Source: Pseudanabaenaceae cyanobacterium SKYG29
GTDB taxonomy: Bacteria; Cyanobacteriota; Cyanobacteriia; Pseudanabaenales; Pseudanabaenaceae
DNA length: 64,000 bases
Direction: 5' to 3'
Assembly (NCBI GenBank): GCA_025055675.1
Contig: JANWWT010000003.1
Coordinates: 124,001-188,000 of the forward strand
In this document: one piece after another, positions 12,876-47,201 of the stretch
How positions within the stretch are numbered: position 1 is the stretch's first letter
How the letters are laid out: the number at the start of each line of letters is the position of its first letter
Made by a program: the position numbers and the translations under genes
The notes under the pieces: model-generated
The model's input: only the letters and a program-made list of their open reading frames with translations
Told to the model about the DNA's origin: nothing
Databases searched by the model: none

Positions 12876-14474
12876 ATGCTGGCAACTTCTGACCCCATCG
12901 ACCAAGCTTTTGCAGAAGCCGCCCAGGAATGGGATTTAGAGCGTCTCTATAGTGATTTAGAAAAAATTAGTGCTAAGGAACTGAAACCAATTGAGAAAGC
13001 CTGTCTGCGGGGACTCCTCTGCCGCTACCGCCCTGGGCAAATTGCCCACAAACTAGCCTGGACATCAGGGGCACTGCGGGTGGAACTAAACAAGGGGCTT
13101 TATCGCCACATTGAAGCACTGACAGGACAACCACCCAACACCCTGCGCTGGGAAAAAATCAGTGAATGGTTAGCCCAGTACAGGTATAGCGATCGGCAAG
13201 CCGCACCACCAGCTCACCACATCGATTGGGGAGAAGCCCCCGAAGTACGGCAATTTTTCGGCAGGAGGGACGAATTACAAACCTTACAGCAGTGGATCGT
13301 GCATGACCGGTGTCGTGTCGTGGGGATTTGGGGGATGGGGGGCATTGGCAAAACTGCCCTGGCGGTCAAATTAGTGGAACAGATCAATCACCATTTTACT
13401 TTTGTGTTATGGCGGTCTTTACGGTATGTTTTACCTTTATCCCAAGTGATAGAAGGATGGAGTAAAAAACTGGGGAATGACACAGGAGATTTACTAGGTG
13501 CCCTCAAACAACAACGCTGCCTGTTAGTTATCGATGACTTTGAAGCAGTATTGCAAGATGGAGAACTAGCAGGGGCTTATCGCTTAGGCTGCGAAAGTTA
13601 CGGCACTTTAATAAGAAGATTGGGCGCGGAAAGACATCAGAGTTGTGTGGTCATCCTCAGTCGGGAACATCCCAAAGAACTATTGTTATTACAGGGGGAA
13701 GAATTACCCGTGCGGTCATTGAAACTAAGGGGAATGCAGCCAGAAGGAGCCAAGGAATTACTACGCGCCAAAGGATTTGACCCTAACTTGCCAGGCGTAA
13801 ATGAGCTAATTCAACAATATCGGGGGAATCCCTCCGCTCTTAAACTAGTTGCTCTGACCATCAAAGAATTATTTAATGGCAATGTCACAGAATTTCTGCG
13901 GCAAACCGCTCTGGGTTTAGGGGATGTCCTCCGTAGTTTATTATATGAACAGTTTAACCGCCTATCAGAGTCAGAAAAAGAAATTTTATACTGGCTAGCA
14001 TTGAAGCGCCGCCCGATCGATTTACAGGAATTACGGTCAGCCATGGCAATCACTGCTACAGGTTCGGAGTTAATTGATGCATTAGAATCTTTGCGGTGGC
14101 GGTCGTTAATTGAGAAAACAAATGATGAGCCTGTTAAATTTACCCTAGAGCCAGTAGTGATGAAATATGTCAATCAAAAACTGAGTGAAGAAATTATCCT
14201 AGAGCTGACATCCATAATTGAGCACAAGCAGATAAATACCATGTACTTTCTGCAACGGTTCCCTCTTGTAGAAGACACTGCGCCTGACAATATCCGTGCT
14301 GTACAGATTCGCTTAATCCTAAAACCGATTAAAGATAAAACCTATGCTCTATTAAGTAAAACTAATACTAATCCCCATGACCTACAAACCATCCTTGGGC
14401 AACTAACGCCCAGTGAATGCCTGGAAAATAATTTGGTTTTGTTAGGTCTCTGGCTCGATCGTGAAGCTTCCTAG
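12876..14474 (+). CDS. STAND-class ATPase: N-terminal HTH-like domain plus NB-ARC, no C-terminal repeats
   Basis: This 532-residue protein has an N-terminal helical domain (about residues 15-105) like the HTH found in vWA-MoxR-associated and cyanobacterial NB-ARC proteins. An NB-ARC NTPase core follows: P-loop GMGGIGKT at 153-160, Walker B LLVIDD at 216-221, and an ARC winged-helix portion to about residue 460. Homologues usually continue into WD40 or TPR repeats that sense ligands. Here the chain stops about 80 residues after the winged helix. Such ATPases act as signalling switches or in conflict systems; the partner here is unknown. A J-domain gene follows within 41 bp. Confidence 0.78.
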   Translation: MLATSDPIDQAFAEAAQEWDLERLYSDLEKISAKELKPIEKACLRGLLCRYRPGQIAHKLAWTSGALRVELNKGLYRHIEALTGQPPNTLRWEKISEWLAQYRYSDRQAAPPAHHIDWGEAPEVRQFFGRRDELQTLQQWIVHDRCRVVGIWGMGGIGKTALAVKLVEQINHHFTFVLWRSLRYVLPLSQVIEGWSKKLGNDTGDLLGALKQQRCLLVIDDFEAVLQDGELAGAYRLGCESYGTLIRRLGAERHQSCVVILSREHPKELLLLQGEELPVRSLKLRGMQPEGAKELLRAKGFDPNLPGVNELIQQYRGNPSALKLVALTIKELFNGNVTEFLRQTALGLGDVLRSLLYEQFNRLSESEKEILYWLALKRRPIDLQELRSAMAITATGSELIDALESLRWRSLIEKTNDEPVKFTLEPVVMKYVNQKLSEEIILELTSIIEHKQINTMYFLQRFPLVEDTAPDNIRAVQIRLILKPIKDKTYALLSKTNTNPHDLQTILGQLTPSECLENNLVLLGLWLDREAS

Positions 14475-16094: not shown

Positions 16095-19000
16095 ATGGAC
16101 ATTAAGGAATTGCTTGATATTGAACTGTGGGAAAAAATACCACTTGGTGTTTTTGTTATCAACGTTCTGGGCACAGTTTTGTGGGTTAATGAGTGGGGTT
16201 GTCAATTATTGGGAGTGTCCGCCGAGAAGATAGTTGGTCATCCTGCCTTTCATAACAGCGTGGTGGGGATAGATGGCATACCATTATTGCCCGAACAATT
16301 GCCTTTCTATCAAGCTATCAATACTGCTCAACCTGTACGCCAAGCTATTTTGGGGATCAATCAACCCCATAAAAAGTGGTTTTTGATGGATGCTATTCCC
16401 AAGTGTAATGACAACGGGGAAGTAGTAGTTGTTGTAATTACTTGCCAGGACATTACTGCCCAAAGGGAAGCGGAACAGCAAAAGCAAAATCTCTCTAAAC
16501 GCATTCAAGCTATTCTCAATAGTTCTCTCAATGGTGTAGCTATTTTGCATAACGATCGGGTGATTGAAGCCAACCTTAAGTTGGCCCAGATGCTCGGTTA
16601 CACTATGACGGAGTTACTACAACTAACACCGAAAGACTGGGAGCCAGCAATTAGAGACCGTATCCGATCCAGTAATATTGGTGCCAATGTCTACGAGGCA
16701 GTCCATCATCGCAAGGATGGTTCTACCTATGATGCGGAAGTGATAGTAACTGCCCTAGAAATAGAAGGTCAGGAATACTATATCTATATTGCCAAAGACA
16801 TTAGCTATCAAAAAGCTGTGGAAATAGCTCTGAAAAAAAGCAGAGAACAATTTACTAACATCTTTCAGTCCATTTCTGATGCTGTTGTTTATCTCGATCG
16901 GGATTACATCATTCAGTTTGCTAACAATCTCTTTTTAGCCAAGTTTGACAAGTCAGCAGAAGAAGTAATCCATGCTTATTTCCCTGACATAATTGGTGCA
17001 GAACAGTTTAACAAAGTAAAGCCCAAGTTAGAGCGCTGCTTACAGGGAGAATTTGTCACATTTGCTGATTGGTTTAATTATCCCCGTGTAGGTCGTCGTT
17101 ACATCAGTGTTACCTATTCCCCCTATCGCAATCACAGGAAAGAGGTTTTGGGTGTAGTCATAACCTGCCGTGATATTACCACTGAAAAACTTGCCCAGGA
17201 GGAATTGGAACAGCAGAGAAAGCAGGATAATTTAATTGCTACGATCGCTAATATATTACTGCGTAATCGGGATTACCAGGAATTTTTAACTGAGGTTTTA
17301 CCACTGCTGCATGGCTATTGGCAGTGCGATCGGGTGTTGGCATATGAATTTCAAAGTCATGGCATTGCCACACTAGTTAGTGCCACAGTAGGGGAGGGCA
17401 TAGAAGCAGTAGCGCAACATATTTGTCTGCAGTGTATAGAGGAGCATGTTTGGCAGCCGAATGCAGTAATGACAAGCAGCGATATTACTAATTCTGGCTA
17501 CAGTAGTAGCTACAGACAATTTTTACTAGACCAAGGGATTAGAGCGCAGATGGTAGTGGGGATATGGTGCGGTCAACAACTATGGGGGGGCATTTTTATC
17601 CAGCAGCAACAACCACGGCAGTGGACAGAGGGAGACAGGCAATGCTTAGCTACTGTCAGTACACAATTAGGGATAGCTATTTATCAAGCCAACCTATACC
17701 ATAATTTACAGAAGCAACTCGCCCAGTCTCAGCTCCTTTATCGGATTGCTAGCTGTATTAAAGACTTCGTAGAGATAGAGAGAGTTTTTGACTATGTCAC
17801 TACAGAAATTGGCAGGTTTTATCAGGGGAATATCGTCACTATTCAAAAGTATGATAGCCAAACCTCTACCTGGTCTAAACAGTCCCTTTATCCTCCTAGC
17901 TGTACAAACTACATTAATCCCACTACTGCAGTCGAGGCTTCATTGCTAGAAGGAGAAATCACCACACTTACTGAGGCTGATCAACAGGGATTGCTGGTAC
18001 CAATTAAGATAGATGATAAATTATGGGGGTGTTTGACCCTGCAAACTAGTGCATCTGTAATCCTAACAGAAGAAGTGCAACAGTTTATGCAAACGATCGT
18101 TGATCAACTGACGGTAGGGATTAAAAACTATCAGGCAACCATGAGTCGTATATCCATGCAGCAGGAATTAATACGCTTAAATGATGAGCTAGAGGAAATA
18201 GTGTTCAATCGTACTAATGCCCTCCTAGAATCCCAACTGCTGCTGAGAACACAGTATGAACAAGATAAATTAATTAATAAAATTATCGATCGGATTCGCA
18301 ACACCATTGAGCTAACAACAATGTTACAAACGACGGTGCAGGAGGTGCGAGACTTAGTGCAAACAAATAGGGTATTGATTTATCAACTTATGCCTGATGG
18401 TACGGGACAAGTTCTGGCAGAAGCAGTAGATAAACATACCCCCAGTTTGTTGGGTATGCGGTTTAATCCAGAAGTATTTCCCCCTGACTGTTACAGCGCC
18501 TTTGTCCAAGGGAGAATTTCTATTATTAATAATCCGACTGAGGTGCGGACTCCCTGTCTAGGAGAATTTATGAACTCCTTGGGGGTAAAAGCGGTAGTGG
18601 TGATTGGTCTAATTTTGGCTGAACAACTGTGGGGTTTATTAATTTTACATCAGTGCGACCAGGAGCGGGTTTGGCAGCCCACGGAAATCAAACTGTTAGA
18701 GCGCATTAGTCGCTCTCTAGCCCTGGGGATTAAACAGGCTGATCTCTATCAGCGTCTGGAAAGACAAGTTAATCAGTTAATTGAATTAAATCAAGTCCTA
18801 GAACTGAGACTAAAACAGGAGCAGCTCATCAATTTAATTTCAGAGCAGGTGCGCTGGTCGGGTAGCATTCACGAAATTTTAATCCTAGCAGCAACGGAAA
18901 TTAGGCACTTCTTAGAAGCAGATCGGGTCTCCATTGTACAGGTCAGAGATGGTAAAGTTATTCGCTCTTTTCAGTCCCCCAGCGATAGTCCCATTACTGC

Positions 19001-19856
19001 AATTGACTGTGATACACTCCTAGTGGGATTTAACCAGGGTAACTACTATCAAGATAGTCATAAGCTTATCCTGCCTATCCTTATCCAAAATAACAAGAAT
19101 TGGGGGTTTGTTATTGTATTTAATTGTTTGCCCACTAAATGGAATATTACCACGATTAGACTACTGACCCAGATTACCAGCCAGTTAGGCTTAGCCATCG
19201 ATCGCTTAACTTTTTACTACAAAATGGAATCGGAACTGCGCCAGAAAAATGCCTTGCTTAAAGAGGTACACCACCGTGTGAAAAACAATTTGCAAATTAT
19301 GTCCAGTATTCTGCGGATGCAGTCCCGCAAAGTGGATAAGGCGCTTTTGCCTGTTCTTGATGATGCGCAAAACCGAATTTATGCCATGTCACTTGTCCAT
19401 GAACAACTCTACAGAACTGATAATTTCGCTGCCATCAATATGCGAGATTATGTCCACAGGTTGGTACAGACAATTTTTGGTACCTACCAAGAGCGATCGA
19501 AACATATAGAAACGGTGTTAGAGATTCCTGACATTAGTATCCCCCTGGAAAAGACGATTCCTCTGGGCTTAATTCTGAATGAACTCATCACTAATGCAAT
19601 CAAGTATGCTTTTCCTGAGGGTAGGGGTAAATTTACAATTCAAGTCACCCAGACTGACACAGGGATCGAGATTGTCATAGCAGATAATGGGGTGGGGCTA
19701 CCTGCTGATTTGGATATCCACAGAGCCAAGACTCTGGGCATGATTTTAGTCGCTGACCTAACGGAGCAACTAGAGGGAAAAATTAGTTACCGCAATGACA
19801 ATGGCGCGGTATTTACCCTGGTCTTGCCCAACTTTACTTCAACCGCCGATACCTAA
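16095..19856 (+). CDS. PAS/GAF multi-sensor histidine kinase, HisKA_2 type, with a CBCR-like GAF domain
   Basis: This 1253-residue sensor kinase has three PAS domains (about 8-120, 135-240, 250-365) and four GAF domains (about 380-535, 545-680, 725-885, 905-1040). A HisKA_2 dimerisation domain follows with EVHHRVKNNLQ (candidate phospho-His1060), then an HATPase_c domain (Asn1162, Asn1167, DNGVGLP at 1197). The third GAF domain resembles phytochrome/cyanobacteriochrome GAFs. It has Cys821 in TPCL, 24 residues before LWGLL, the spacing of the bilin-attachment Cys, and a further Cys799. The first GAF has Ser472 at the equivalent place. No membrane segment is visible, so the kinase is cytosolic. 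The output partner is not encoded nearby. Confidence 0.88.
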   Translation: MDIKELLDIELWEKIPLGVFVINVLGTVLWVNEWGCQLLGVSAEKIVGHPAFHNSVVGIDGIPLLPEQLPFYQAINTAQPVRQAILGINQPHKKWFLMDAIPKCNDNGEVVVVVITCQDITAQREAEQQKQNLSKRIQAILNSSLNGVAILHNDRVIEANLKLAQMLGYTMTELLQLTPKDWEPAIRDRIRSSNIGANVYEAVHHRKDGSTYDAEVIVTALEIEGQEYYIYIAKDISYQKAVEIALKKSREQFTNIFQSISDAVVYLDRDYIIQFANNLFLAKFDKSAEEVIHAYFPDIIGAEQFNKVKPKLERCLQGEFVTFADWFNYPRVGRRYISVTYSPYRNHRKEVLGVVITCRDITTEKLAQEELEQQRKQDNLIATIANILLRNRDYQEFLTEVLPLLHGYWQCDRVLAYEFQSHGIATLVSATVGEGIEAVAQHICLQCIEEHVWQPNAVMTSSDITNSGYSSSYRQFLLDQGIRAQMVVGIWCGQQLWGGIFIQQQQPRQWTEGDRQCLATVSTQLGIAIYQANLYHNLQKQLAQSQLLYRIASCIKDFVEIERVFDYVTTEIGRFYQGNIVTIQKYDSQTSTWSKQSLYPPSCTNYINPTTAVEASLLEGEITTLTEADQQGLLVPIKIDDKLWGCLTLQTSASVILTEEVQQFMQTIVDQLTVGIKNYQATMSRISMQQELIRLNDELEEIVFNRTNALLESQLLLRTQYEQDKLINKIIDRIRNTIELTTMLQTTVQEVRDLVQTNRVLIYQLMPDGTGQVLAEAVDKHTPSLLGMRFNPEVFPPDCYSAFVQGRISIINNPTEVRTPCLGEFMNSLGVKAVVVIGLILAEQLWGLLILHQCDQERVWQPTEIKLLERISRSLALGIKQADLYQRLERQVNQLIELNQVLELRLKQEQLINLISEQVRWSGSIHEILILAATEIRHFLEADRVSIVQVRDGKVIRSFQSPSDSPITAIDCDTLLVGFNQGNYYQDSHKLILPILIQNNKNWGFVIVFNCLPTKWNITTIRLLTQITSQLGLAIDRLTFYYKMESELRQKNALLKEVHHRVKNNLQIMSSILRMQSRKVDKALLPVLDDAQNRIYAMSLVHEQLYRTDNFAAINMRDYVHRLVQTIFGTYQERSKHIETVLEIPDISIPLEKTIPLGLILNELITNAIKYAFPEGRGKFTIQVTQTDTGIEIVIADNGVGLPADLDIHRAKTLGMILVADLTEQLEGKISYRNDNGAVFTLVLPNFTSTADT

Positions 19857-46715: not shown

Positions 46716-47201
46716 ATGAGCGTTATTACTCAAGTTATACTGCAGGCGGATGATGAACTGCGTTACCCCACCTTGGACGAACTACAAACGATCAAGGACT
46801 ACCTACAAACGGGTGCACAACGGGTGCGGATTGTCAGTGTGTTAACAGAAAACGAAGAGAAAATTGTCAAGAAAGCCACGGAAGAACTGTGGAAAATTCA
46901 TCCCGAATACATTGCCCCAGGGGGAAATGCCGCCGGTGCTAGGCAGCGCGCCCAGTGTATCCGCGATTTTGGCTGGTATCTCCGGTTAATCACCTACGGT
47001 ATCCTGGCAGGGGATAAAAAACCGATCGAGGACATTGGGATCATCGGTGTGCGAGAAATGTATAACAACCTCAATGTGCCCTTGGTGGGTATGGCAGATG
47101 CTATACGCTGTCTAAAAGCCGCTGCCCTCGTGCTCTTACCGGCTGAGGATGCTATGGTAGCAGAACCCTACTTCGATTACGTTATCCAGGCAATGCTGTA
47201 A
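46716..47201 (+). CDS. apcD: Allophycocyanin alpha-B subunit
   Basis: ApcD is a terminal emitter of the phycobilisome core that passes energy, mainly toward photosystem I or in state transitions. The 161-residue protein aligns with ApcD ([19 protein letters not shown]). Phycocyanobilin would attach at Cys81 in [17 protein letters not shown]. It is a single gene away from the main apc operon, as usual for apcD. The upstream 131 bp holds a purine-rich tract (GGAGGGGAGGGG) and a likely ribosome site. Confidence 0.94.

Follow-up and report, generated by a model that had tools for sequence, protein, structure and literature searches.

A putative phycobilin-binding HisKA_2 kinase with a Cys-Leu-lineage cyanobacteriochrome domain in a Pseudanabaenaceae cyanobacterium

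We analysed a window of 64,000 nucleotides from Pseudanabaenaceae cyanobacterium SKYG29 (assembly GCA_025055675.1, contig JANWWT010000003.1, positions 124,001 to 188,000 of the forward strand), in which one open reading frame (ORF) encodes a multidomain histidine kinase of 1253 aa. Judging from sequence, the third of its four GAF domains (GAF3) is a cyanobacteriochrome (CBCR) domain of the Cys-Leu lineage, that of the green/red sensors RcaE and CcaS, and we consider it highly probable that GAF3 covalently binds a phycobilin at Cys821 and passes a light signal to the HisKA_2 kinase. The protein is most likely a phycobilin-binding CBCR kinase that derives from the green/red lineage and whose photochemistry has changed. 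All gradings of confidence given here are judgements, not computations.

Pfam scans of the ORF identified three PAS segments, four GAF domains, a HisKA_2 domain (residues 1057-1131) and a HATPase_c domain (residues 1155-1245), bearing out the architecture proposed in a first-pass annotation of this DNA. Every domain segment, when scanned alone, matched at least one family of the expected kind above the Pfam gathering score, and the HisKA_2 and HATPase regions contain the H, N and G boxes of a HisKA_2 histidine kinase. No PHY domain was found among the Pfam matches of the ORF; GAF3 is followed directly by GAF4, as in a CBCR. Full-length orthologues with 75% and 50% identity were found in both of the other genomes of the host genus that were searched, and we refer to the window protein and these two relatives as the orthologue trio. 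The features of the ORF, in window positions, are as follows:
16095..19856, plus strand: kinase ORF, 1253 aa, PAS-PAS-PAS-GAF-GAF-GAF-GAF-HisKA_2-HATPase (Pfam; near full-length orthologues L003/L068 and L004/L067)
16128..16469, plus strand: PAS1, residues 12-125 (PAS_4, 40 bits)
16500..16805, plus strand: PAS2, residues 136-237 (PAS_9, 37 bits; PAS_8, 33 bits)
16863..17189, plus strand: PAS3, residues 257-365 (PAS_4, 56 bits)
17271..17681, plus strand: GAF1, residues 393-529, degenerate and CBCR-like, with Ser472 at the attachment-Cys column (GAF, 44.5 bits)
17778..18116, plus strand: GAF2, residues 562-674, without CBCR features (GAF, 25 bits; 16 and 23 bits with the two CBCR models described below)
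18216..18761, plus strand: GAF3, residues 708-889, predicted CBCR GAF of the Cys-Leu (green/red) lineage (RcaE matches, CBCR models, trees)
18471..18473, plus strand: Glu793 codon, presumed RcaE Glu217 column (alignments)
18489..18491, plus strand: Cys799 codon, second Cys in predicted helix alpha-3 (Cys in all three orthologues)
18555..18560, plus strand: Cys821-Leu822, putative bilin attachment site (aligned to the RcaE Cys-Leu)
18594..18596, plus strand: Val834 codon, presumed RcaE Lys261 column (Val/Thr/Thr in the trio)
18867..19199, plus strand: GAF4, residues 925-1035, no attachment Cys seen (GAF, 31.5 bits)
19263..19487, plus strand: HisKA_2, residues 1057-1131, HHRVKNN at 1059 (92 bits)
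19557..19829, plus strand: HATPase_c, residues 1155-1245, NELITNA at 1162 and ADNGVG at 1196 (50.8 bits)

The best sequence match of GAF3 in the PDB was RcaE, both for the single sequence (E values of 5e-34 for entry 8k9o and 2e-29 for entry 7ckv) and for a profile of three sequences (2.5e-41 for 8k9o). Cys821 aligned to the Cys of the RcaE motif AECLVEF, indicating that the match is not due to chance. This Cys, at the canonical attachment column, is kept in all three orthologues, as are Glu793, Leu822, Trp846, His852 and Arg858, and GAF3 is the GAF domain best conserved towards the 50% orthologue (53% identity, versus 42, 30 and 41% for the others). The earlier placement of Cys821 24 residues before LWGLL was correct (LWGLL begins at 845). 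We drew two samples of GAF domains by similarity to window GAF3 and RcaE, such that frequencies within them are not population frequencies. The first comprised 129 distinct GAFs (with RcaE and PPHK among them), each aligned over 140 or more of the 182 model columns; among the 111 with a Cys at the attachment column, 49 have Leu next to it. The first-pass annotation was right that Leu822 stands where His is usual, but this is normal for the lineage rather than an oddity: according to PMC9415938, CcaS and RcaE have Leu instead of the His beside the attachment Cys. Leu822 is thus the residue expected of the green/red subfamily.

The HMM comparison with CBCR GAFs that had been suggested as a check gave the same picture. 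We built two hidden Markov models (HMMs) from sampled GAFs, one (CL) from 53 members with Leu, Met or Ile after the Cys, the trio being left out, and one (HY) from 54 members with His or Tyr. GAF3 scored 207 bits with the CL model and 181 bits with the HY model. The CL-minus-HY margins of the training members, each scored by models that contain it, ranged from +21 to +65 for CL and from -21 to -65 for HY, without overlap, and those of the trio, excluded from training, were about +25. A second sample of 208 GAFs, each covering at least 130 of 176 columns, comprised 117 CL-type domains (Cys followed by Leu, Met or Ile), 64 HY-type domains, and 27 that were set aside because they lack the Cys or follow it with a different residue; thinning at 90% identity left 104 CL-type and 60 HY-type GAFs. 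CL-type was assigned by letter; one GAF so assigned, L135, is on the HY side according to the models and the tree. In the tree of this sample, a node with support 0.959 holds RcaE, window GAF3, 103 of the 104 CL-type GAFs and 10 HY-type ones, placing GAF3 phylogenetically with RcaE. The trio itself was recovered with support of 1.00 in the first tree and 0.996 in the second. Its exact neighbours differed: in the first tree (130 sequences) the trio was nearest to Cys-Leu GAFs of many same-family genomes, with support of only 0.54, and in the second it lay in a 13-member group with two-cysteine GAFs, with support of 0.858. Placement inside the Cys-Leu group that holds RcaE was common to both. 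A Foldseek search with an AlphaFold2 (AF2) model of GAF3 returned cyanobacterial CBCR or phytochrome entries in 17 of the 18 top rows (all but row 17), with a top E value of 1e-12, in agreement with the PDB sequence matches and the profile that GAF3 is a GAF domain of the phytochrome superfamily. We used this model only for helix limits and as a check of the fold, since pocket distances are not readable from it.

Among the four GAF domains, GAF3 is by these comparisons the only convincing bilin site, because the other three scored lower with the CL model and slightly higher with the HY model (71 versus 89 bits for GAF1, 16 versus 23 for GAF2, 61 versus 64 for GAF4). GAF1 does have Ser472 in place of Cys, as reported earlier, and its attachment-Cys column holds Ser, Ala and Asn in the three orthologues. 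This cysteine-less, CBCR-like copy appears to derive from a His/Tyr-type CBCR GAF whose attachment Cys was lost, and the kinase may therefore once have had two bilin sites. Among Cys-Leu-lineage GAFs of same-family genomes, five (L006, L009, L011, L012 and L072) have Ser, Trp, Ser, Ser and Asn, respectively, in place of the attachment Cys.

Several observations weigh against GAF3 being a working sensor of the green/red lineage. We take the protochromic triad of RcaE to be Glu217, Leu249 and Lys261, at the columns of window Glu793, Leu822 and Val834; these residue numbers and the role of the triad reportedly stem from work by Hirose et al. in 2013, and the spacing in RcaE around the Cys (Glu at -31, Leu at +1, Lys at +13) agrees with them. 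Glu793 is present in all three orthologues, and Glu in 94 of the 101 other non-redundant CL-type GAFs. By contrast, the triad Lys is absent from GAF3: its column holds Val, Thr and Thr in the trio, versus Lys in 97 of the 101 others, the remaining four carrying Leu, Arg, Glu and Ile. Residue 838 is Gly in all three orthologues, whereas 112 of the 114 other CL-type GAFs have Pro, and the Tyr803 column holds Phe in two of the three, including window Phe803. The pocket of GAF3 could be impaired through the lost Lys, Gly838 and Phe803. Furthermore, the margin of GAF3 between the two models (about 25 bits) is near the bottom of the CL range, and RcaE as a single sequence gives 130 bits with a DXCF GAF of the host genome, L131, against 117 bits with GAF3, such that our assignment to the lineage is based on profiles, trees and signature residues instead of pairwise similarity. 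The AF2 model, made from three sequences, is weak (mean predicted local distance difference test score, 61; predicted template modelling score, 0.62), with its lowest confidence between alpha-3 and the helix that carries the Cys. Lastly, a Pfam scan of 10 neighbouring ORFs recognised no response regulator (two of these ORFs had no family match), and we rejected the idea of a signalling partner next door.

GAF3 resembles RcaE and CcaS (RcaE being the sequence compared) in its GAF fold, its Cys-Leu pair, the Glu at the Glu217 column and its placement by trees and HMMs; it differs from them in the Val/Thr at the Lys261 column, in Gly838, in an extra Cys799 and in a stretch before Cys821 that is three residues shorter than that of RcaE, as well as in belonging to a kinase with HisKA_2 output, three PAS domains and three further GAFs. 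The real oddities of the domain are the loss of the lineage Lys and Pro, neither of which was named in the first-pass annotation. No other CL-type GAF in our samples combines a non-Lys residue with Gly838 and Cys799; L014 (Arg) and L076 (Ile) have a Cys at the Cys799 column and have lost the Lys, with the Pro kept. Among the titles and abstract openings that we surveyed, no publication evidently describes this combination, which is not to claim its absence from print.

Cys799 falls within a predicted helix (H90-97) of the AF2 model. Its column holds Cys in all three orthologues and in 17 of the 101 other non-redundant CL-type GAFs, and Tyr in 49 of the 101; overall, 20 of the 117 CL-type GAFs carry the Cys, trio included, and 16 of these 20 carriers share one 37-member clade with the window domain (support 0.86). 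A motif E-V-[FY]-P-x-x-C around this residue was rejected as a mark of the genus in view of the 17 other carriers; a degenerate DNA pattern for it matched 5 of 386 genomes, the four hits outside the window being in short or unrelated frames. Cys799 had been described as near a DXCF-like place, and it does lie five residues past the DXCF column, but it is not the DXCF Cys: the alignment puts Val794 at that column (Pro792-Glu793-Val794-Phe795), and the assignment was rejected. DXCF CBCRs such as TePixJ (PDB 3vv4) have their second Cys in the same region; when aligned via L131, the DXCF Cys of the TePixJ motif DPCFREHW coincides with Val794, and the Trp of that motif with Cys799. In Insert-Cys CBCRs the second Cys is in a large loop insertion, whereas Cys799 is in the predicted alpha-3. 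The second Cys of AM1_1186g2-type domains is at the column of AnPixJ Tyr302, which we take to be that of window Phe803, with Cys799 four residues earlier. According to PMC6628166, the dual-Cys, red/blue domain AM1_1186g2 belongs to the XRG lineage and has its second Cys, Cys2510, in alpha-3. GAF3 likewise has a second Cys in the predicted alpha-3, but by our column assignment Cys2510 is one helical turn after the Cys799 column. Six sampled GAFs (L048, L054, L058, L065, L089 and L093) have a Cys at both the DXCF and the Cys799 columns in addition to a Cys-Leu or Cys-Ile site, which places three cysteines around a single presumed pocket for the bilin; in one of the two trees they fall in the same 13-member clade as GAF3 and, unlike GAF3, they have the lineage Lys as well as the DXCF-column Cys. 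That these CL-type GAFs have it alongside a DXCF-column Cys argues against Cys799 being simply a substitute for, or a relocated form of, the DXCF second Cys. We regard it as a candidate second attachment Cys at a position that differs from those of DXCF and AM1_1186g2-type domains.

If GAF3 binds bilin, it could work in more than one way. It may have the usual protochromic green/red cycle of RcaE, with the loss of the Lys compensated or unimportant; its lineage placement and the retention of Glu793 and Leu822 throughout the trio favour this, but the Lys that most relatives keep is missing from all three orthologues, and we view this as a real though minor possibility. Alternatively, Cys799 may attach reversibly to C10 of the bilin, yielding a blue- or violet-absorbing form in one photostate, much as DXCF CBCRs or AM1_1186g2 do with a Cys at another position. 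Consistent with such a two-Cys domain are the conservation of Cys799, the clade shared by most of its carriers, its place in the predicted helix, and its position one helical turn before the Cys2510 column; this is nevertheless unlikely, given the six GAFs with both cysteines and given that a residue invariant in three sequences, the most distant of which is 53-55% identical here, is weak evidence.

GAF3 might also not sense light at all. It could be a structural or dimerisation domain that is decaying as GAF1 has, and the cysteine-less CBCR-like GAF1 in the same protein, together with the cysteine-less Cys-Leu-lineage GAFs of same-family genomes (L006, L009, L011 and L012), is consistent with this; however, the attachment Cys, Glu and Leu are kept at 53-55% identity, and no other GAF of the protein is as well conserved towards the 50% orthologue, making such decay quite improbable. 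A redox-sensitive disulphide between Cys799 and Cys821, which are 22 residues apart and conserved together in all three orthologues, is very improbable, since all other features of GAF3 fit a CBCR.

We therefore favour a bilin-binding GAF3, which would carry a phycobilin, probably phycocyanobilin, on Cys821. Light would isomerise the bilin, and the signal would pass through the linker helices and GAF4 to the HisKA_2 kinase, whose motifs are intact. The kinase would in turn phosphorylate a response regulator whose gene lies elsewhere, and additional inputs presumably come from the PAS domains and the remaining GAFs. The colours sensed are not readable from relatives, because the colour-tuning Lys is lost and an extra Cys is near the pigment site. 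The triad Lys is thought to help deprotonate the 15Z bilin, and GAF3 is therefore less likely to have a simple dark state that is deprotonated and absorbs green; our guess is a protonated dark state that absorbs orange or red.

The host genome (2.56 Mb, 18 contigs, 97% complete) encodes a heme oxygenase (278 bits), three Fe_bilin_red enzymes above the cut-off (assigned at the level of the family that includes PcyA, PebA and PebB) and the phycoerythrin subunits CpeA and CpeB above NCBIfam cut-offs, and so the chromophore should be available to GAF3. The proposal of a bilin-binding GAF that feeds a HisKA_2 kinase thus has support from the sequence, the lineage and the genes for bilin synthesis, but its description as unusual is only partly right: the Leu is standard, and a HisKA_2 motif occurs in one ORF with a CL-type GAF at 7 of the 54 loci examined (two of them the orthologues), many of the stretches being too short to reveal a kinase. 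CBCR GAFs, the Cys-Leu lineage and HisKA_2 output are each of known kinds or recurrent in other genomes.

A search of the host genome with the GAF3 profile gave 12 matches at E values up to 1e-5, two of them within the kinase ORF. The other GAFs of this genome that were scored favour the HY model or tie, and L135, from a chemotaxis-receptor-like protein of the same genome, is Cys-Leu by letter yet outside the Cys-Leu node of the tree; on these grounds GAF3 looks like the only Cys-Leu-lineage CBCR of the host. With RcaE as the query, 17 of 38 genomes of the same family (Pseudanabaenaceae) reached E values below 1e-80 among the matches listed, and the three genomes of the host genus reached only about 1e-38, such that the kinase may be the only green/red-lineage sensor of its genus. 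The other clear CBCR of the genome is L131 (G000:C1:440681-441196), part of a 770-aa ORF with PAS, DXCF-GAF and histidine kinase regions and the sequence YDHCF...SCHRD; by eye, a chemotaxis-receptor-like ORF precedes it and a CheY/GGDEF-like ORF follows.

The genes adjoining the kinase ORF look unrelated to it: judged by eye from their translations, the upstream neighbour is tryptophan-synthase-alpha-like and the downstream one site-2-protease-like, both on the minus strand. The flanking genes (about 1.5 kb fetched on each side) are common to the window and the 75% orthologue and not to the 50% orthologue. Orthologue proteins occur in the records of an uncultured Pseudanabaenaceae metagenome-assembled genome and of "Cyanobacteria bacterium M5B4". 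Elsewhere in the window are a STAND-type NTPase ORF (12876-14474; NB-ARC, 34.7 bits), directly upstream of an ORF that by eye is DnaJ-like, and a phycobilisome-family subunit ORF (46716-47201, G000:C3:170731-171195; PF00502, 203 bits) that by eye is of the allophycocyanin type.

Chromatic acclimation and green/red optogenetic switches are both based on GAF domains of the RcaE/CcaS type. It is conceivable, though we would not expect it, that a branch of the green/red lineage has dropped the switch Lys and uses Cys799 to form a blue/violet thioether, so that a HisKA_2 kinase would respond to a new pair of colours; in the host this would be apparently the only Cys-Leu-lineage CBCR, in a genome that has phycoerythrin and no close relative of RcaE. 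A natural branch that keeps the Glu and Leu of the triad, and is without the Lys in three species, offers a ready test of the role of the Lys, and the recurrent Cys in the predicted alpha-3 is a candidate second attachment site.

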